DNA of 64,000 bases, from NCBI RefSeq assembly GCF_014692505.1, contig NZ_JACNYK010000005.1:248001-312000 (forward strand), given 5' to 3'. Positions 1-39,541 of this stretch are shown here, piece after piece. A program made the position numbers and the translations under genes. Each line of letters opens with the position of its first letter. Positions within the stretch are counted from its first letter, which is position 1. The notes beneath the pieces were generated by a model, which did not search any database, was not told where the DNA came from, and saw only the letters and a list, made by a program, of their open reading frames with translations. The stretch comes from Sphingobacterium arenae (GTDB lineage Bacteria; Bacteroidota; Bacteroidia; Sphingobacteriales; Sphingobacteriaceae).

Positions 1-25
1 TTGTTTAGTACACCAGTTAACTTTT

Positions 26-631
26 ATGATGTATTCGAAGCTGTCTGATAAGAATTTGGCCAATGCCCTTATGGAGGGTTCAACGGGTGCGTTTCGTTCT
101 CTATACGATCGATATAACCGGCCGGTTTATGCCAATATTCTAAAAATAGTAAGACAACCAGAATATGCAGAAGATATTCTGCAGGAAGTATTTGTTGCTT
201 TATGGGAATATCGGGTTAAAATCAAACCAGACCAATCGTTGGGGGGGTGGCTGTTTGTCGTCAGCTTTAATAAGGCCACCACTTTCTTAAAAAAGAAGCT
301 GAGGGAATCGCTTGAGTACGTCGAAGAATACACGGACTATGAACATATATTCCCCGAAGAGACTATTAATGAAGACGAATATCTTTCTCAATGGACAATT
401 GTTGAGGAGGCGATCAATGCGCTACCTGCTCGAAAGAAGGAGGTGTTTAAACTTTGTCGTTTTGAAGGAAAAGCGAAGGAGGAAGTCGCGTCCATGATGG
501 GCATATCGCCCGTCTCTGTAAAGGATTACCTCAAACAATCCAATCGTGCTATCAAAGATTATATCTCCCTGAAATACCCACATCTTTATACGGCTATCTT
601 AATTACAGGTGCTTTTTCAGACAAATTTTAA
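26..631 (+). CDS. ECF RNA polymerase sigma factor (FecI/RpoE-like)
   Basis: Sigma-70 family extracytoplasmic-function factor of 201 residues, the usual ECF length. Region 2 lies at about residues 17-70 (core-binding stretch with YNRPVYANILKIV and the AEDILQEVF helix). Region 4 lies at about 130-185, with ALPARKKEVFKL followed by the helix-turn-helix EEVASMMGISPVSVKDYL. It is followed 127 bp downstream by a FecR-type anti-sigma factor and then SusC/SusD, the standard Bacteroidota arrangement in which substrate sensing releases the sigma factor to transcribe the SusCD genes. The first ATG after the window edge is used; an ATG one codon later is equally possible. The family call is firm; the regulon is inferred from position only. 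Confidence 0.93.
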   Translation: MMYSKLSDKNLANALMEGSTGAFRSLYDRYNRPVYANILKIVRQPEYAEDILQEVFVALWEYRVKIKPDQSLGGWLFVVSFNKATTFLKKKLRESLEYVEEYTDYEHIFPEETINEDEYLSQWTIVEEAINALPARKKEVFKLCRFEGKAKEEVASMMGISPVSVKDYLKQSNRAIKDYISLKYPHLYTAILITGAFSDKF

Positions 632-1937: not shown

Positions 1938-4900
1938 ATGAAGCAGAAGAACAAAGTATTGTTTATGATGGGGAAATATGCGGTGATGCTATGGTTAATG
2001 GTACCCCTGATGTCTTTCGCACAACAGTCTACTATCATCCGGGGAACCGTTATGGATAACAGTGGGCAGCCGCTGGCGGGCGTTACGGTGGAAGTCGTGG
2101 ATAGTTTACAAAGTCGGCGTTTTCAAGCCTCTACAAACGACAAAGGTATCTTTTCTCTGGCGGGTTTAACGGCTGGAAATTCTTACCAGGTAGCGTTCAA
2201 TAGAATAGGATATGAGCGGTACCTCGAGCGCAACTTTTTGGTGCGGGCTGGCGATAATAATTCTTTGCTTGTCCGGATGTCAGAAGTTAGTGAAAAAGTA
2301 GAGGAGGTCGTGGTCGTTGGGTATGGTACACAGCGAAGAGCATTGGTTACGAGTGCTATTAGTAAAATGGATGTAGATGAATCTACGATGCGTCCTGTAA
2401 ATAGCCCTGCTCAATTGTTGGATGGTCGAATCGCTGGGGTTTCTACGGCAACAGGATCAGGAAATTTAGGGAGCGGAGAGCGGGTCAGTATACGAGGGAT
2501 ATCCTCGCTGAGTGCAAGTAATGAGCCGCTGTATGTCATTGATGGCGTGCCGATTACCAATACGAATAGTAACCTGTATGATTTTGGTGAATCTATGAGT
2601 TCTTTGGCTACGTTGAACATAGCCGATATCGAGTCGATCGAGATATTGAAGGATGCTGCTTCGGCCGCCATCTACGGCTCCAGGGGAACCAATGGGGTTG
2701 TGGTGATTACGACGCGTTCGGGAAAGGAGGGGCGTGCAGATATACGTCTCAATGTGAATGGCGGTATGACACAATTCCCTTATTTGAATAAAATTAAAAT
2801 GGCGGATTCCGAACTGTATGTAAAAAGTATGAATGAAGGGATTGCCAATTACAATGAACAGTACGGGCTACAGATCGGTAACTCTGGATACAAATTACCT
2901 ATTTCTAATCCATTTGGCAACCTACCTGACACGGATTGGATGGATGTTATTACGCAAACAGGTTCTTTTTTTACAGTAGATGCAGCGGTTTCGGGCGGAA
3001 CACAGAAGATGAAAAACTACTTCGCCGCAGCGTATACCACACAGGAGGGCGTTATCAAGACCAACTCCATGGACAAAATCAACCTACGAGGGAAGATGAG
3101 TTATGAAGTAGCACCTTGGTTGGAAATTGGAACGAATAATTCAGCGAATTATGTGCGGAATAATCAAATTCCCGGAGCTTCTCTTGGAACGACTATTATA
3201 GGTCGATCTATACAACAGCGCCCGTTTGACAGACCTTACAAACCAAATGGCGATTATTACGTTGGCGGTACGAACGAGCTGGTATATCACAATCCGATGC
3301 AGATCCTTAACGAGCAAACAGTATATATCGAAGATTTACGCTATTTGGGGAATTTCTATACCACATTGAAATGGAAAGATAAGCTGTCTTGGAAATCGTC
3401 GTTTAATGCGGATGTGACACAGACCTACGACCATACCTATTACAACGAGAACCACCCTTATGGTATGGGAGTGGGAAGATTGTTGGACCGTAACAGACTG
3501 ATTCGAAACTATTTGTTTGAGAATGTTTTGACTTACAATGATAAATTTGGTGATTTTTCGCTGAATGCTATTGCGGGGCATTCTTTCCAGAAAATTGATA
3601 CGCGTACCACCTATATCGATGCCCGAGGATTTCCTTCTCCGTCTTTCGTCGTAGCGAGTGCCGCTGCAGAGACGATATCTTCTTCCGGACGTGGTATTTA
3701 TACCCTGGAATCTTATTTTGGTCGCGCGACGCTTTCGTACTTGGATCGTTATATATTGACAGGTACGTTGCGAACCGACGGGTCTTCTCGTTTTCATCGG
3801 GACAATCGCTGGGGCTGGTTTCCGTCGATATCTGCGGGATGGAATATTTCGGAAGAAGAATTTATGCAGGGAAGTGGTACAGATCTTAAGTTCAGAATGA
3901 GTTACGGTCGTACCGGTAATCAAGACGGCTTAGGCAGCTACGTTTACCAAGCCTTAATGCAGGGTGGGTATAATTATCTTGGTAACAGCGGTATTGCCGT
4001 CAATACTTTTGGAAACGAAACATTGACATGGGAGAAGGCCGGACAGTATGATGTCGGGTTTGATCTCGGACTGTTGAACGGTAAAATAAACGTCATGGTC
4101 GATTGGTATCAGAAGAATACAACCGATCTGATCTACTCTATGCCAGTACATGCAACGACAGGTGTTACTTCCATTACGTCCAATATTGGGTCGATGCGAA
4201 ATCGCGGTGCTGAATTCACAGTTAATACACATTTTAATTTCGGTCAGTTCCAATGGCTGTCCCAATTTAATATTGCAACGAACAAAAATAAGATCACCGC
4301 ACTTATTGGGGATGATGAGCCGATTAGTATCGGGGGTAATAGGGCATTGCAGGTCGGCAAAGAGATTGGTGCGTACTACCTGTTCAAAATGGAAGGAATC
4401 TATCAATATGATGGAGAGGTCCCAAAATCGCAATACGATATTGGCATACGGGCCGGCGATGTCAAGTGGCAGGATGTGGATGGCAATGGTATTATCAATG
4501 ACAACGATCGAGTGGTCATGGGATCATCTAACCCGGATTTTTCCGGGGGATGGAATAATACCTTCCGGTATAAAGGATTTTCCTTAGATGTGTTTTTGTC
4601 TTATGTCTATGGCAATGATGTCTTTGCACAATGGCAGGGCGAGGTGGCGCGATTAGGCCATAATAGTGCAGTTATGGCAGAACATGCTGAAAACCGATGG
4701 ACTGGCCCAGGTTCTACGAATAAATATCCACGCGCATTGAACGGCGACATCAATAATACACGTAACTCCGACCGTTGGTTGGAAGACGGGTCTTTTATAC
4801 GGTTGAGAACGCTTATGTTAAGCTATAATTTTCCAACACCTACATTGAACAAATATCACATCAAAGGCTTGCGGACTTTCCTCCAAGCAGACAATCTGTT

Positions 4901-5030
4901 TCTGATTACCAATTATCCGGGATGGGATCCACAGGTTAGTAACAATATGGACCCACGTTTCTTTAGTGTGGATACGTTTAATGTACCCCAACCTCGAACA
5001 TTTACGGTAGGACTCAATGCAAACTTTTAA
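1938..5030 (+). CDS. SusC/RagA-type TonB-dependent outer-membrane transporter
   Basis: TonB-dependent oligosaccharide (or peptide) importer of about 1030 residues. The start is placed at the ATG at 1938, which directly begins a good signal peptide ending in MSFAQQ; an in-frame ATG at 1914 would add eight polar residues. After the signal come a CarboxypepD_reg-like domain (about 28-115), the SusC signature EEVVVVGYGTQ, the plug with LYVIDGVPI and SIEILKDAASAAIYGSRG, and a long beta-barrel ending in an aromatic residue (GLNANF). No STN domain precedes the carboxypeptidase-regulatory-like domain. It is three bases upstream of its SusD partner. The substrate is unknown. Confidence 0.96.
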   Translation: MKQKNKVLFMMGKYAVMLWLMVPLMSFAQQSTIIRGTVMDNSGQPLAGVTVEVVDSLQSRRFQASTNDKGIFSLAGLTAGNSYQVAFNRIGYERYLERNFLVRAGDNNSLLVRMSEVSEKVEEVVVVGYGTQRRALVTSAISKMDVDESTMRPVNSPAQLLDGRIAGVSTATGSGNLGSGERVSIRGISSLSASNEPLYVIDGVPITNTNSNLYDFGESMSSLATLNIADIESIEILKDAASAAIYGSRGTNGVVVITTRSGKEGRADIRLNVNGGMTQFPYLNKIKMADSELYVKSMNEGIANYNEQYGLQIGNSGYKLPISNPFGNLPDTDWMDVITQTGSFFTVDAAVSGGTQKMKNYFAAAYTTQEGVIKTNSMDKINLRGKMSYEVAPWLEIGTNNSANYVRNNQIPGASLGTTIIGRSIQQRPFDRPYKPNGDYYVGGTNELVYHNPMQILNEQTVYIEDLRYLGNFYTTLKWKDKLSWKSSFNADVTQTYDHTYYNENHPYGMGVGRLLDRNRLIRNYLFENVLTYNDKFGDFSLNAIAGHSFQKIDTRTTYIDARGFPSPSFVVASAAAETISSSGRGIYTLESYFGRATLSYLDRYILTGTLRTDGSSRFHRDNRWGWFPSISAGWNISEEEFMQGSGTDLKFRMSYGRTGNQDGLGSYVYQALMQGGYNYLGNSGIAVNTFGNETLTWEKAGQYDVGFDLGLLNGKINVMVDWYQKNTTDLIYSMPVHATTGVTSITSNIGSMRNRGAEFTVNTHFNFGQFQWLSQFNIATNKNKITALIGDDEPISIGGNRALQVGKEIGAYYLFKMEGIYQYDGEVPKSQYDIGIRAGDVKWQDVDGNGIINDNDRVVMGSSNPDFSGGWNNTFRYKGFSLDVFLSYVYGNDVFAQWQGEVARLGHNSAVMAEHAENRWTGPGSTNKYPRALNGDINNTRNSDRWLEDGSFIRLRTLMLSYNFPTPTLNKYHIKGLRTFLQADNLFLITNYPGWDPQVSNNMDPRFFSVDTFNVPQPRTFTVGLNANF

Positions 5031-5032
5031 AG

Positions 5033-6307
5033 ATGAAAGTGATGAAAAAATATTTCATAGCCATGATGGCAATAGTACTATTTGGATCTTGTGCTGACCA
5101 GTTAGAGCAGTTTTCGTTCTCGGCGATTTCGCCGGATGCGGTAGATATACGCGATGTCCCTGCGGTACGGAATGGTATGTACAATAGCGTGCAAAATGAC
5201 CCGACTGTTCGCTCATTTATCCTGTTTGATATGCTCGGTGGAACGATACAGACTAATTCGGGCACCTCTAGAGATTTGATTAACGCGACATTGAGTCCGT
5301 TGAACGCTACTGTCGGGGCAAGCTGGAACGGTTACTTTAGCGCGCTGTATCAAGTGAATAATATGCTTGCGGTGGCGGAGCGTTTCCCGGAAGCGGAATT
5401 GGCATCCTTATCTAAAGGAGAGGCTCATTATTTTCGGGCGTACATCTATTTTTGCTTAGCAACTCGATGGGGCGATGTGCCGATTTTACGGAACAATACG
5501 ATGGAACGTGTTCATCGGGACCCTATAGCGAATGTCTGGGCGTTTATCGAAGAAGAATTAGATGCAGCGGCGGCGTTGCTCGGTAGTTCTTCAAGTTACT
5601 ACTACGTTTCCCGCGGTGCGGCGATTGCCCTAAAAGCACGGGTAATGCTCAGCCAAGGGAAAATGGAACAAGCGGCTACCTTGGCTGAAAGCTTAATTAC
5701 CGATGGAGCCTATCGGTTGGATACCTTTGAACGTATTTTCCGTGATGCCAGCGATACAGAAACCATTTTTGCGTTCGCGAACCGTACGGAAGAATCAAGT
5801 ATCAATATCAGTGATCTATTCTATACTTATGGGCACCCGAACAGAGGGCAGGGCGCTTATAAGCCTACACCGGAAACCATCGCATTGTTTGCTGATGACG
5901 ATAAGAGAAAAGCTATTTCATTGATCAATATCGCTGGTACGGAATGTATCAATAAGTACCCCAGTGGACAAACCGGCCGCGACCCTTTTATCGTTTCTAG
6001 AATAGCCGAAATGTACCTCATTAGTGCAGAAGCACAAGGAAGATCGTTAGGCGTTGAACGGCTGAATGAGCTGCGTCGATTCAGAGGTTTAGGGGATATC
6101 TTTCCTGCTAATGATAATGAATACCTGACAGCTATATTAAGCGAGAGAAAACGCGAATTGTTGGGAGAAAACTTTATGTATCACGATCTGGTAAGAACAG
6201 AACGGGCGAAGGAGGAATTGCAGTTACTCGATCATCAGCACGTGTTGCCTATTCCCGGTAGAGAGTTACAGCTCAACCCTAATCTCGTGCCTAACCCAGG
6301 TTATTAA
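5033..6307 (+). CDS. SusD/RagB-type surface glycan-binding lipoprotein
   Basis: Lipoprotein that caps the SusC barrel and binds substrate at the cell surface. The signal peptide ends in the lipobox LFGSC. At 424 residues it is short for a SusD. Family features include the tetratricopeptide-like helices (KGEAHYFRAYIYFCLATRWGDVPI), the C-terminal ILSERKRELLGENFMYHDLVRTERAKEEL region and the terminal LPIPGRELQLNPNLVPNPGY. It begins 2 bases after the SusC stop, so the two are co-translated. Either the ATG at 5033 or that at 5042 could be the start. Confidence 0.95.
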   Translation: MKVMKKYFIAMMAIVLFGSCADQLEQFSFSAISPDAVDIRDVPAVRNGMYNSVQNDPTVRSFILFDMLGGTIQTNSGTSRDLINATLSPLNATVGASWNGYFSALYQVNNMLAVAERFPEAELASLSKGEAHYFRAYIYFCLATRWGDVPILRNNTMERVHRDPIANVWAFIEEELDAAAALLGSSSSYYYVSRGAAIALKARVMLSQGKMEQAATLAESLITDGAYRLDTFERIFRDASDTETIFAFANRTEESSINISDLFYTYGHPNRGQGAYKPTPETIALFADDDKRKAISLINIAGTECINKYPSGQTGRDPFIVSRIAEMYLISAEAQGRSLGVERLNELRRFRGLGDIFPANDNEYLTAILSERKRELLGENFMYHDLVRTERAKEELQLLDHQHVLPIPGRELQLNPNLVPNPGY

Positions 6308-35434: not shown

Positions 35435-37126
35435 ATGATAAATAAACTTTTCCGAAAGAAGAGTGTCGACCAGATCGTTGCAGATGCTCAACAGGGGACG
35501 GGACTTGCTAAAGTTTTAGGTGTTCGTGATCTCGTGTCATTGGGAATTGCGGCAATAGTGGGTGCTGGAATATTTAGTACCATTGGTCTAGCGAGTTATG
35601 AGGGAGGTCCCGCTATCTCTTTACTTTTTATTTTTGTAGCCTTCGCTTGCGTATTCACCGCGCTGGCCTATGCACAATTTGCCAGTACTGTTCCGGTGTC
35701 TGGCAGCGCTTATACATATGCTTACGTCACCTTTGGAGAACTCTTTGCTTGGATTATTGGTTGGGCTCTCGTTTTAGAATATGCCGTTTCTAATACGGTC
35801 GTCGCGATTTCTTGGTCTCAATATTTTGTGTCCATGTTAGAAGGTTTTGGAGTGTATATTCCAAAGTGGTTGACGATGGCTCCTGGATATGCCACGGATG
35901 CGTATGAAAAGTTTCTTTCGCAAGGGATGAATGCGCTCAGTGCGTCGGATAAGGTGGGGCTCCACGCCTATATGTCTGCGCCACGGGTGGGGAGTATTCC
36001 GATTATTTTTGATTTACCTGCGGGTTTAATAACGGTGCTTGTTACCTGGTTGGTATATATTGGCATTAGAGAATCGCAGCGGGCAAGTAATATTATGGTT
36101 GCTGTTAAAGTTGGGATTATCTTATTGGTTATTGCCGGAGGGGTTTTCTTTGTTAAACCTGAGAATTGGACACCCTTTATGCCTAATGGTATTCCGGGTG
36201 TGATGGGGTCTGTCGCAGCGGTATTCTTTGCTTTTATTGGCTTTGATTCTATATCCACGACGGCAGAGGAATGTAAAAATCCACAACGTGATTTGCCTCG
36301 TGCGATGATAATATGTTTGGTGATATGCACCCTGTTATATGTCGCCATTGCCTTGGTTTTGACAGGTATGGTAAACTATACAGAGCTGAATGTGAAAGAT
36401 CCCTTGGCGTTTGTTTTTAAGTACGTAGGCTTCGATCATATGGCGGGTATTGTGTCGGTTACCTCTGTTGTAGCTATAACAAGTGCTTTGGTCGTGTATC
36501 AATTGGCACAACCGCGAATCTGGATGACAATGAGCCGCGACGGTTTGCTATGGAAAAAATTTGCTCGAGTACACCCAAAATACAAGACACCGTCTTTTGC
36601 AACTATTGTAACTGGCGTTGTAGTGGCAGTTCCATCGTTGTTTTTTAAAATGGACTTTTTTGTCGATTTGACGAGTGTCGGAACATTTTTCGCTTTCATC
36701 TTGGTATGTGCTGGTGTACTGTACATGGATTATACCGGGTTATCGGCGAAATCTAAATTCAGAGTGCCTTATATAAATGGTAAATACTTAATCGGGCTGG
36801 GATTTGTTGTCGCTTGGATTTTCCTATATCGTTATGGGCAGGATGCGATACAGGAATGGAGAGAGATGCCTTGGCTGGAGATAGCAGAGCACAAATCCCT
36901 CATCTTGATTTTTTGGTTGGTTTGGGTAATACTCGCTGTGATGGGATATAAATATAAATTTTCCTTGTTGCCTGTTACAGGGATTTTAATTAATCTTTAC
37001 CTAATGAGTCAGCTCGGAGCAAGCAATTGGATTATATTTTTGGTATGGTTGGCCGTGGGGCTGGTACTCTATTTTATATACGGGTATAAACACTCGAGAT
37101 TGAACGTTAGGGAAAATAAAAAGTAA
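35435..37126 (+). CDS. APC-superfamily amino-acid permease (CAT-like)
   Basis: 563-residue inner-membrane transporter with about 12-14 hydrophobic helices. Family signs are the N-terminal GVRDLVSLGIAAIVGAGIFSTIG, the AFACVFTALAYAQFASTVPVSGSAYTY-type helix 3 segment and FFAFIGFDSISTTAEECKNPQRDLPRAM. These match the cationic amino-acid transporter group (YfnA-like). The extra length falls in a loop around residues 145-195. Substrate is not readable from the sequence. Transcription may start at its own ATG. Confidence 0.92.
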   Translation: MINKLFRKKSVDQIVADAQQGTGLAKVLGVRDLVSLGIAAIVGAGIFSTIGLASYEGGPAISLLFIFVAFACVFTALAYAQFASTVPVSGSAYTYAYVTFGELFAWIIGWALVLEYAVSNTVVAISWSQYFVSMLEGFGVYIPKWLTMAPGYATDAYEKFLSQGMNALSASDKVGLHAYMSAPRVGSIPIIFDLPAGLITVLVTWLVYIGIRESQRASNIMVAVKVGIILLVIAGGVFFVKPENWTPFMPNGIPGVMGSVAAVFFAFIGFDSISTTAEECKNPQRDLPRAMIICLVICTLLYVAIALVLTGMVNYTELNVKDPLAFVFKYVGFDHMAGIVSVTSVVAITSALVVYQLAQPRIWMTMSRDGLLWKKFARVHPKYKTPSFATIVTGVVVAVPSLFFKMDFFVDLTSVGTFFAFILVCAGVLYMDYTGLSAKSKFRVPYINGKYLIGLGFVVAWIFLYRYGQDAIQEWREMPWLEIAEHKSLILIFWLVWVILAVMGYKYKFSLLPVTGILINLYLMSQLGASNWIIFLVWLAVGLVLYFIYGYKHSRLNVRENKK

Positions 37127-37759
37127 ATATACAACACGTGCTTCCTTAATTTGGGGACTCTCCGCGCCAATTTTTCCGCAGCGGTGTACTTTTTGTTGAC
37201 CGTTTTAGTCACCTTTGCCTAAAATTGGATAAAAACATTGGTTTAACGCGGCTAAAGGCTCTTTTTGTGGTGAGTATATACTTACCGAAAGGTATACGTA
37301 ATGAGCCAAATGTTATACCTGATGAGCCAACGTGTGTACCTGACGTAACGAACGGTATACCGGATGAGCCCAAACGAATACCTTATATGCTAAAATGTAA
37401 ACGTGATGTAACAACCCGTATACCGAATGCGTCAAAAATAATACATTCGGCGGTAAAGGGTATACTGGCTGAGTCAACTCGTATAGCAGATGAACCAAAA
37501 CGGATACCATACATGTCAAAACCAATACCTTACGCGCTCAAGTGTATACGTGATAAGGTAAATAGTATACTGTAGAGGCCACAAGTAATACGTTATGTGA
37601 AAAAGTGTATACGGGATGGCACGACAGCATAGCGAATTTGTCAAAAATAAAAACGGATTACTATTCCTAATTTTAAAAAAAACACTAACTTTAATACAAT
37701 ATAGGAGGTTGAATGCTAGGTTGTTGGGTGGATTTCTCTATAAACGGGCAAATGATGTT
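37127..37759. other. Intergenic region carrying the 21-bp repeat array
   Basis: 633 bp between the permease and the DUF1800 gene. The first 165 bp has no recognisable gene or terminator, only a weak inverted repeat TTTTAG/CTAAAA near 37204-37225. The middle is the phased array described separately. The last ~130 bp is AT-rich upstream sequence of the DUF1800 gene. Confidence 0.7.
37292..37627. repeat. Array of 16 degenerate 21-bp tandem repeats (GTATAC-based)
   Basis: Sixteen consecutive units of exactly 21 bp. The GTATAC-like hexamer recurs at 37292, 37313, 37334, 37355, 37376, 37397, 37418, 37439, 37460, 37481, 37502, 37523, 37544, 37565, 37586 and 37607 without a single insertion or deletion. 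Each unit reads roughly GTATAC, three variable bases, ATG, then GCCAAAA-like sequence. A slipped partial unit may follow at 37628. Because 21 is a multiple of 3, several frames stay open: plus-strand reading gives IPDEPKR-like heptads (37225-37575) and minus-strand reading gives VYxLxHP-like heptads (37525-37313). I do not treat either as a proven gene. Units are only moderately alike, so the array is old or under selection for spacing rather than identity. Confidence 0.9.
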
Positions 37760-39541
37760 ATGTTATATCAAGGAAAAAAAATAAGCGTATTTTTTCTATT
37801 CTTTTTAGGATTGTGTTTTTCTTATGCGCAAAAAAATCCGGAGGTTTTTCCATATAAGGCAGCGGGCTTAAGTGAAGAGGAAGCGGCGATACACCTGCTA
37901 AGCAGATTTACCTATGGCTATAATGTCAACGACGTACGGCAAATTCAAAAGGAGGGATTGGAAAGATGGTTTTTTAGGCAATTGCGGGGAAAAGCAACGG
38001 ATAAGGAATTAGTTGAAATGCTGGAACCGTATGCAGACGCGATGTTGGATAATAAAACACTGGCTGAGAAGTATCCTCGAAATACGCGCGTCAGAAGAAT
38101 GATGATTAATGAGGGATATATTCCGAAAGATTCGGTCCTTAATGGAAGTGCCTTTTTTAAAGAAGCATATAAAAATTATCTAGCGGAAAAAGGGTTTAAA
38201 CCGGAGCAAGAACTCTATAGAAAATTTATTGCTGCAAAAGTACTTCGAGCAGCATTCTCTGCTAATCAATTGCAAGAAGTCATGACAGATTTCTGGTTCA
38301 ACCATTTCAATGTATCGTTTACCAAGCCGCAATCAGCCCCTTTTATCCCTTCCTATGAGAATCATGTTATTCGTCCGAGGGCTTTGGGTAAATTTGATGA
38401 ACTTTTGTTGGCAACAGCTAAATCACCAGCGATGCTGCTTTACTTAGACAATGCCTCTAGTGTAGCCGAACGGCCTAATGCAAAAAATAAAATAGGGATT
38501 AATGAAAACTATGCGCGGGAACTTCTGGAGTTACATACATTGGGCGTAGACGGTGGTTATACACAAAAAGATGTTTCGGAAGCAGCGCGTATATTGACGG
38601 GCTGGACCATCTATCCCTTGAATGGATATGGAAATCAAAACTTGATTAAGCAAATCACCAAGGGAAATGAAGTACAACGTCAAAGTTTAATTGAAGAGGA
38701 TTTTGTCTTTGCAGCAAATAGGCACGATAAGCGACAGAAAACGGTGCTGGGAAAAGATTTTGAAAACAACGGGTATGAAGAGGGCGTTGAGCTGATCTTC
38801 TATCTGTCTTCTAGACCACAGACCGCCCGTTTTGTTTCCAAGAAGATAGCCGTTCGTTTTGTCAGCGATACACCCCAAGAAGCTTTGATAGAGAACATGG
38901 CGAATGCTTTTTTAGCATCTGAAGGCGATATTAAGAAAATTTTGACGGCAATGGTTTATTCCCCGGCGTTTTGGCATCGGGATAATGTATATAGTAAGGT
39001 GAAAACCCCTTTTGAATTGGCCATTAGCAGCGTTAGGGCTTTAGATGCTCAAGTCGAAAATCCCAATCGTTTGATTAACTGGGTTACGAGGATGGGGGAA
39101 AAGAAATACTATTATATCGCCCCTACAGGTTTTCCTGATAAGTCAAGTTATTGGATCAATACGGGCTCGCTATTGAACAGAATGAATTTTGGATTGTCCT
39201 TTGCTTCCAATAAAGCGTCAGGTATAAATATAGACCTTTTGGAACTGACAAGGCATCATGAACCGGAAAGCCCGGAACACGCATTGGATGTCTATGCAAA
39301 GCTACTGTTGCCCACAACAGATATTATCACATTGAAAAATAGACTTTCGCCGCTTTTGACGACGCAAAATTTGCAGAAAAAAGTAGCAAAGTCGTCTGGT
39401 GGTGATCGTCATGGACAAGACGAGGACATGCTGGCTGTCAACACCAGGAAAATAAACAACAGAAACAGTAAATCAAACAATGCGATGCTGGCACAGGTGG
39501 TTGGTCTCATTATTGGGTCTCCGGAGTTTCAAAGACGTTAA
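37760..39541 (+). CDS. DUF1800 family secreted protein
   Basis: About 593 residues from the ATG at 37760, which begins a signal peptide ending CFSYAQ; a longer reading from 37616 would start inside the repeat array and is rejected. DUF1800 features are LSEEEAAIHLLSRFTYG, WFRQL-like early helices, MTDFWFNHFNVSF, NENYARELLELHTLGVDGGYTQKDV and ARILTGWTI. Function of the family is unknown; its members nearly always sit next to a DUF1501 gene, as here (2 bp gap). Role in export or handling of a periplasmic or surface product is speculation. Confidence 0.93.
   Translation: MLYQGKKISVFFLFFLGLCFSYAQKNPEVFPYKAAGLSEEEAAIHLLSRFTYGYNVNDVRQIQKEGLERWFFRQLRGKATDKELVEMLEPYADAMLDNKTLAEKYPRNTRVRRMMINEGYIPKDSVLNGSAFFKEAYKNYLAEKGFKPEQELYRKFIAAKVLRAAFSANQLQEVMTDFWFNHFNVSFTKPQSAPFIPSYENHVIRPRALGKFDELLLATAKSPAMLLYLDNASSVAERPNAKNKIGINENYARELLELHTLGVDGGYTQKDVSEAARILTGWTIYPLNGYGNQNLIKQITKGNEVQRQSLIEEDFVFAANRHDKRQKTVLGKDFENNGYEEGVELIFYLSSRPQTARFVSKKIAVRFVSDTPQEALIENMANAFLASEGDIKKILTAMVYSPAFWHRDNVYSKVKTPFELAISSVRALDAQVENPNRLINWVTRMGEKKYYYIAPTGFPDKSSYWINTGSLLNRMNFGLSFASNKASGINIDLLELTRHHEPESPEHALDVYAKLLLPTTDIITLKNRLSPLLTTQNLQKKVAKSSGGDRHGQDEDMLAVNTRKINNRNSKSNNAMLAQVVGLIIGSPEFQRR

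Follow-up and report, generated by a model that had tools for sequence, protein, structure and literature searches.

A phased 21-bp repeat array of Sphingobacterium arenae is a solo copy of a dispersed element associated with fibronectin-III genes of Bacteroidota

Background

The iterons of plasmid replication are direct repeats of about 17-22 bp to which a cognate protein binds in phase, while REP/REPIN sequences, which occur with RAYT genes, are dispersed inverted-repeat elements that stand in part next to a protein gene and in part alone. In type II partition systems, as outlined in the part of PMC9426499 that deals with parC, direct repeats lie upstream of the operon and have a length of 10, 11, 17 or 20 bp. 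The same part states that the repeat sequence also differs between systems and that ParR wraps the DNA into a solenoid (PMC9426499). Among AraC-family regulators, the operator sections of two further sources describe two 15-bp direct repeats for XylS, with boxes 6 bp apart (PMC5481539), and two 15-bp blocks for MtlR, at -72 to -58 and -50 to -36 (PMC4514859).

The window analysed here, the whole stretch of 64,000 nucleotides from S. arenae, contains an intergenic array of 21-bp repeats. In the open-access literature searched, we found no description of this array or of its link to genes of fibronectin-III (FN3) proteins.

The array and the block that carries it

The array is part of an intergenic block of about 530 bp, located between a gene for an amino-acid permease (35435..37126, + strand; ORF, Pfam AA_permease_2 E 1.3e-52) and one for a DUF1800 protein (37760..39541, + strand; ORF, Pfam DUF1800 E 7.5e-126; the frame opens at 37616 and the start at 37760 is our choice). 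The block (37127..37680, + strand, ends approximate), recognised from a syntenic site that lacks it in the genome G013, contains no gene and is composed of a leader, a palindrome and the array. The leader bears an inverted repeat, TGGGG...TTTTAGTCACC (37152..37213, + strand), which, aligned with 13 other leaders, proved to be decayed here; the window hairpin folds weakly (z -1.1). A small palindrome, GGTGAGTATATACTTACCG (37269..37287, + strand), present at the same position in the aligned leaders, joins the leader to the array.

The array itself comprises 17 units of 21 bp, the last of them weak (37292..37648, + strand; consensus about GTATACcTgATGagccAAAac; no indels relative to the ortholog in G007). 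An earlier, sequence-only reading had counted sixteen units in exact phase, and this count held: the register runs from 37292 to 37627 through 16 units without an indel, followed by a weaker 17th unit up to 37648. The mean autocorrelation over lags 21..147 was 0.525, versus 0.265 in 500 dinucleotide shuffles (sd 0.0097, max 0.299), and among periods 10-69 the column information was by far the highest at 21, 42 and 63; 21 bp, with its multiples, is the sole period of the window array. TRF reports just 3.8 copies, which is due to the strong divergence of the units. The description of the units as centred on GTATAC was correct in part, as the exact hexamer occurs in 7 of the 16 units (tallied by hand from the printed units) and the remainder carry variants, e.g. 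TTATAC, GAATAC and TAATAC; however, its role as the key to the family was not supported, as other arrays of the family have unrelated units.

The same reading had called for a search for further phased regions. In a scan of 464 kb of the window genome (the window itself and 20 segments of 20 kb), the window array alone scored above 0.42 at period 21, and over periods 12-29 one further region passed, with a period of 28. The units stand head-to-tail with no spacers, which distinguishes the array from CRISPR. A search of the element against Rfam gave no family (best E 0.92, under its cut-off), and a known RNA family was rejected on this basis.

The same site in close relatives

In G007, the closest relative compared, an alignment spanning the whole array shows 32 substitutions per 360 bp and 0 indels, so that the loss of phasing in close relatives, which had been named as an observation that would contradict the sequence-only reading, did not occur there. 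Four-fold sites of the DUF1800 gene differ between the window and G007 at the same rate (20/222 versus 32/360 in the array): the drift of the window copy matches that of neutral sequence. The window genome also has no relative of the adjoining-type AraC gene at E<=1e-20, and this, together with the neutral drift and the weak hairpin, indicates that the window copy may be a relic.

In G013, the permease and DUF1800 genes are adjacent, the array is absent and the gap measures 115 bp versus 634 bp in the window, which implies an insertion or a deletion of about 530 bp. The block is thus polymorphic for presence and absence, with an empty syntenic site in G013; in that alignment its termini were not resolved to the base and no target-site duplication was recognised. 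G018 and G006 have relatives of the DUF1800 gene, with no array within the surrounding 10 kb.

A separate observation concerns the permease gene. Between the window (35435-37126) and L071 of G007, 144 of its 253 four-fold sites differ, as opposed to only 20/222 in the DUF1800 gene, while the end of the permease gene is near-identical by eye. A diverged gene with a near-identical end suggests that a recombination breakpoint probably lies inside the permease.

A leader element dispersed in Sphingobacterium

A DNA search with 37126-37310 gave matches, some of them short, in 10 of 93 genomes of the genus, and whenever such a match is followed by an array, leader and array keep the same relative order. 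With a sequence model built from 14 leaders, matches were found in 32/93 genomes at E<=0.01 (for G016:C24, one placement was spurious by eye and a better-placed model match was used). The layout consists of a long inverted repeat, a small palindrome and then the array, the unit of which varies from locus to locus. Among the 47 best leader matches, an FN3 gene is listed within 1.5 kb of 20, and the other 27 are solo; next to the solo-type leaders, the best period was 21 in 24 of the 26 examined. The window copy is one of these stand-alone copies of a dispersed element.

Another solo array was noticed in the window genome, in L062 at about 4810-5100 (G000:C14, minus strand), with a leader reduced to its last ~50 bp and a higher-order unit of 63 bp. 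In addition, one intergenic site is occupied by a 21-bp array in each of two species (L064 and L065); the units of the two arrays have diverged, and the adjacent gene is one that we take to be pheT from its N-terminus.

FN3 genes and the organization of their loci

Many leaders abut the start of a gene for a protein of ~205 aa, directed away from the array. In the model of the FN3 protein (mean pLDDT 87.5, pTM 0.53), a helical N-domain is combined with a fibronectin-III fold (best Foldseek E 4.7e-6). The Pfam fn3 cut-off is exceeded by all three of the distant members tested, whereas one close member falls short of it (E 0.022). No DNA-binding domain was recognised in domain, fold and model searches. 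The gene is present in 40/93 genomes of the genus at E<=1e-10, in up to 11 copies, and a leader match lies beside 21 of the 22 closest copies, according to a comparison by hand of the coordinates of leader matches and FN3 genes. On contigs C18 and C12, the window genome has two distant FN3 genes, both preceded by a 21-bp array. A DUF5675 gene comes after two of the distant FN3 genes, one of which sits on C12 of the window genome (L349:7119-7607 and L313:2-538, the latter on the minus strand). Plasmid, phage and viral-contig searches with FN3 queries gave no relative, and PHROGs and PADLOC provided nothing useful.

In Sphingobacteriaceae, the order in the operon sense is as follows: AraC, array, palindrome, inverted repeat, TAnnTTTG box, FN3 and HPLR. 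Within 80 named loci, AraC was found in 55, HPLR in 57 and both in 54. The gene HPLR (L204:3333-4010 for the modelled member), frequent after FN3, encodes a protein with a long three-helix model (pLDDT 92.5) that has no match in PDB at E<=0.001. Its match to the NCBIfam alpha-xenorhabdolysin subunit A (E 6.4e-5, 22 bits versus a cut-off of 125) is weak and probably reflects coiled-coil bias; this identification was set aside.

The TAnnTTTG sequence is a promoter-like box placed just downstream of the inverted repeat in Sphingobacterium. Promoters of Bacteroidota have the layout TTTG-N19-TAnnTTTG; here the -33 box misfits the expected spacing, and therefore only the TAnnTTTG box is named. Across 25 FN3 loci from the wider family, both sides have changed in 15 of the 17 stem pairs of the hairpin, and the stem covariation was 0.355 versus 0.148 in shuffled and at most 0.207 in slid controls, with a stem written from one alignment row, which favours that stem somewhat. 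Such a strong, covarying hairpin, seen at many loci, is what a transcribed structured or repeat RNA, or a folded single-stranded DNA, would show. Nevertheless, we regard an element of this kind as very unlikely: it has no Rfam family, in the operon sense the TAnnTTTG box comes after the hairpin, which would therefore not be part of that transcript, the array persists at distant FN3 loci where no hairpin is evident by eye, and a phase of 21-22 bp is a property of double-stranded DNA.

Association of arrays with FN3 genes across Bacteroidota

At the 80 named loci, the best period was 21 in the upstream kilobase of 67 and in the downstream kilobase of 2. When all FN3 loci were considered, a two-helix-turn array was located upstream in 107/126, versus 1/126 of the downstream controls; 101 of these arrays have a period of 21 bp, five of 22 and one of 43, and the remaining 19 loci have no two-turn array by the criterion used. 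As the first FN3 genes were found through their arrays, the distant set is the fairer test, and at distant loci found by protein similarity only the array was present in 42/46. A 395-genome sample of the phylum, which includes the window's own genome, had an array at 8/8 full-length FN3 homologs and none at four matches to the FN3 domain only. An order-level search gave 13/14 FN3 loci, in regions chosen from the match list with their DNA unseen beforehand, and a 395-genome class sample 21/24, L361 and L366 having been left out of 26 loci for too short an upstream region. L301 of the order-search regions is identical with L317 in the table of 126 loci; L316 and L360 are outside the analysis.

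The suspicion that the array belongs to a repeat family recurring in Bacteroidota was thus borne out, with leaders across the genus and arrays at FN3 loci phylum-wide, and in some genomes further arrays may lie beyond the reach of an FN3-based search. The units are unrelated between loci, as exemplified by ATTCCGAAGGGCTACGGATTC and CAAGTATGTTTTTAGAAAAAC and by the 22-bp array GGTGGGCACTGTGCCCCTACTT.

The AraC gene is directly upstream of the array in 55/80 named loci, and AraC-family proteins, as the described parts of the XylS and MtlR operators illustrate, bind direct repeats about 21 bp apart. The array could accordingly be an extended operator of an AraC-family regulator in front of an FN3-HPLR operon, with solo copies as other targets in trans. 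We consider this unlikely. Split by hand according to AraC status, arrays were present at 49/55 loci with the gene, but also at 18/25 loci without it; they are likewise present in further families of the phylum, in which only 1 of 15 regions gave a match to the AraC and HPLR queries, and in the window genome, which has no AraC relative at the E-value given above. Moreover, the partial correlation of the motif with the AraC DNA-binding domain, given FN3 identity, was 0.015, and 361 of 1000 permutations were as high. A co-evolution of AraC and array beyond shared descent was not found in this test.

Conservation of spacing and change of sequence

The periods of 21, 22 and 43 bp (43 bp corresponding to four turns), found at homologous positions, share a helix phase and not a reading frame, which agrees with the earlier proposal of phasing by two helix turns and supports such phasing as the invariant of the family. 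The accompanying suggestion of heptad-like peptides failed. In the window, the + strand has an open frame of 116 aa (37225-37575), with shorter minus frames also overlapping the array, and this is what protein-coding heptads would lead one to expect; however, the orthologous array of the close relative has an internal stop in this frame, some + frame is open in 31/72 arrays versus 23 expected under column permutation, and periods of 22 and 43 bp shift the frame with every unit, which excludes codon heptads. Coding heptads were rejected on these grounds, and we assign them next to no probability: the array is non-coding.

Among related arrays, substitutions reach 35%, and indels are few in number or absent; divergence is gapless in L209/L210 (32-35%) and L204/L205 (26-27%), in a pairwise comparison whose rows are not independent, as the same locus appears in it under two ids. 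Several gap runs occur in some divergent pairs (L227/L229, L268/L279). There were 31 gap runs per 880 substitutions in arrays versus 15 per 136 in promoter plus UTR. These alignments support the view, already put forward in the sequence-only reading, that selection acts on spacing more than on sequence.

In L275/L276, divergence is below 10% for most coding parts and about 21% for the array, where three single-base gaps also occur; some arrays therefore evolve faster than the genes they accompany. A recombination hot spot had been listed among the possible explanations; in view of the pronounced divergence of some arrays relative to their flanking genes it may be considered, as a speculative possibility. 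As a further observation, L259, L260 and L266 look mosaic, as if hairpin and array had been swapped between loci: L259 and L266 have similar arrays (5.8%) and diverged hairpins (28%), and in L260/L266 the reverse is seen (31% and 4.6%).

The two L275/L276 loci have in common an AraC-array-FN3-HPLR block of ~3 kb in two species with unrelated flanks, which suggests movement as a cassette; it is possibly mobile, with no transposase recognised. This block, the empty site in G013, the excess of solo over linked copies in the genus and the near homogeneity of some arrays would all suit a selfish, non-autonomous mobile repeat, of which the FN3 loci are a richer form and the array a slippage satellite lacking a reader; replication slippage would likewise favour preset unit lengths. 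We nevertheless judge this explanation improbable. The unit lacks a transposase as well as recognisable termini and a duplication, slippage would not by itself account for 21-22 bp at loci with unrelated units or for a spacing that is kept while the sequence changes, and the phylum-wide link to one protein family would be left unexplained.

Curved DNA, another earlier suggestion, would require no specific reader, as small bends in phase would add up to a bend or a nucleoid anchor. In a calculation with wedge parameters, 24/107 arrays (22%) exceeded 95% of their column-permuted versions and none fell in the opposite tail; for the window array, p was 0.083. Part of this mild excess is an effect of composition, as permutation breaks A-runs too. 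Most arrays were unexceptional, and the GC-rich L385 and the homogeneous L309 were less curved than their own permutations, so that curvature as the sole explanation has a very low probability in our estimation.

A putative protein-binding array

Based on these observations, we propose that the array is a non-coding protein-binding array read by its helical phase, with the FN3 protein or a partner as the putative binder; we see about an even chance that this is correct. The occurrence of a scattered element with changing repeats and a fixed spacing suggests that a protein reads the spacing and that the repeats encode nothing. As the units are two helix turns apart, all of them lie on one DNA face, and a single protein contacting the same face every two turns would be the simplest account. 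The FN3 protein or its partner would bind its own array cooperatively, the read-out combining the spacing with a locus-specific, fast-changing motif, and the likely results would be that it regulates its own promoter and marks the site. We infer that the FN3 protein is the likeliest binder, since no other partner is shared throughout the family. The Sphingobacterium form of the unit adds the inverted repeat upstream of the box and, often, an AraC-type gene and HPLR; hairpin and array are also found as solo copies, such as that of the window, in a genome without a close AraC relative.

A bolder version of this proposal, possible rather than probable, is a Bacteroidota-wide system of DNA addressing, in which a helically phased FN3 filament would form on its own array, each paralog would have a private address and solo copies would be docking sites. 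The unit sequence would then be free to change as long as the two helix turns were kept.

If true, an uncharacterised protein family is paired, throughout a phylum, with repeats conserved in spacing and not in sequence, and what reads helical phase without a fixed motif becomes a directly testable question. For annotation, it is worth noting that in the loci translated such arrays often yield long spurious open frames.

Comparison with known systems

The array unit differs from plasmid iterons in being chromosomal, without a Rep gene and with units unrelated between loci. Unlike REP/REPIN sequences, the element has a long phased array and no transposase. AraC/XylS operators, in the described parts of which repeats are about 21-22 bp apart (PMC5481539, PMC4514859), resemble the arrays in this spacing, and an AraC-family gene stands beside many arrays; on the other hand, FN3-family arrays have 15-20 units rather than two, some are without AraC and their motif does not track the AraC DNA-binding domain.

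The likeness to ParMRC lies in direct repeats upstream of an operon, here a phased array upstream of 107/126 FN3 loci, and in phased binding by a small cognate protein, a behaviour that we propose for the FN3 arrays. In Pfam, NCBIfam and PDB folds, the FN3, HPLR and AraC proteins matched neither a ParM-like ATPase nor a ribbon-helix-helix ParR, and without the defining ParMRC proteins the array was not filed as a partition system, despite its centromere-like arrangement. The system described here differs from ParMRC in that it is chromosomal, is present in many copies per genome, includes solo copies and has a fibronectin-III partner.
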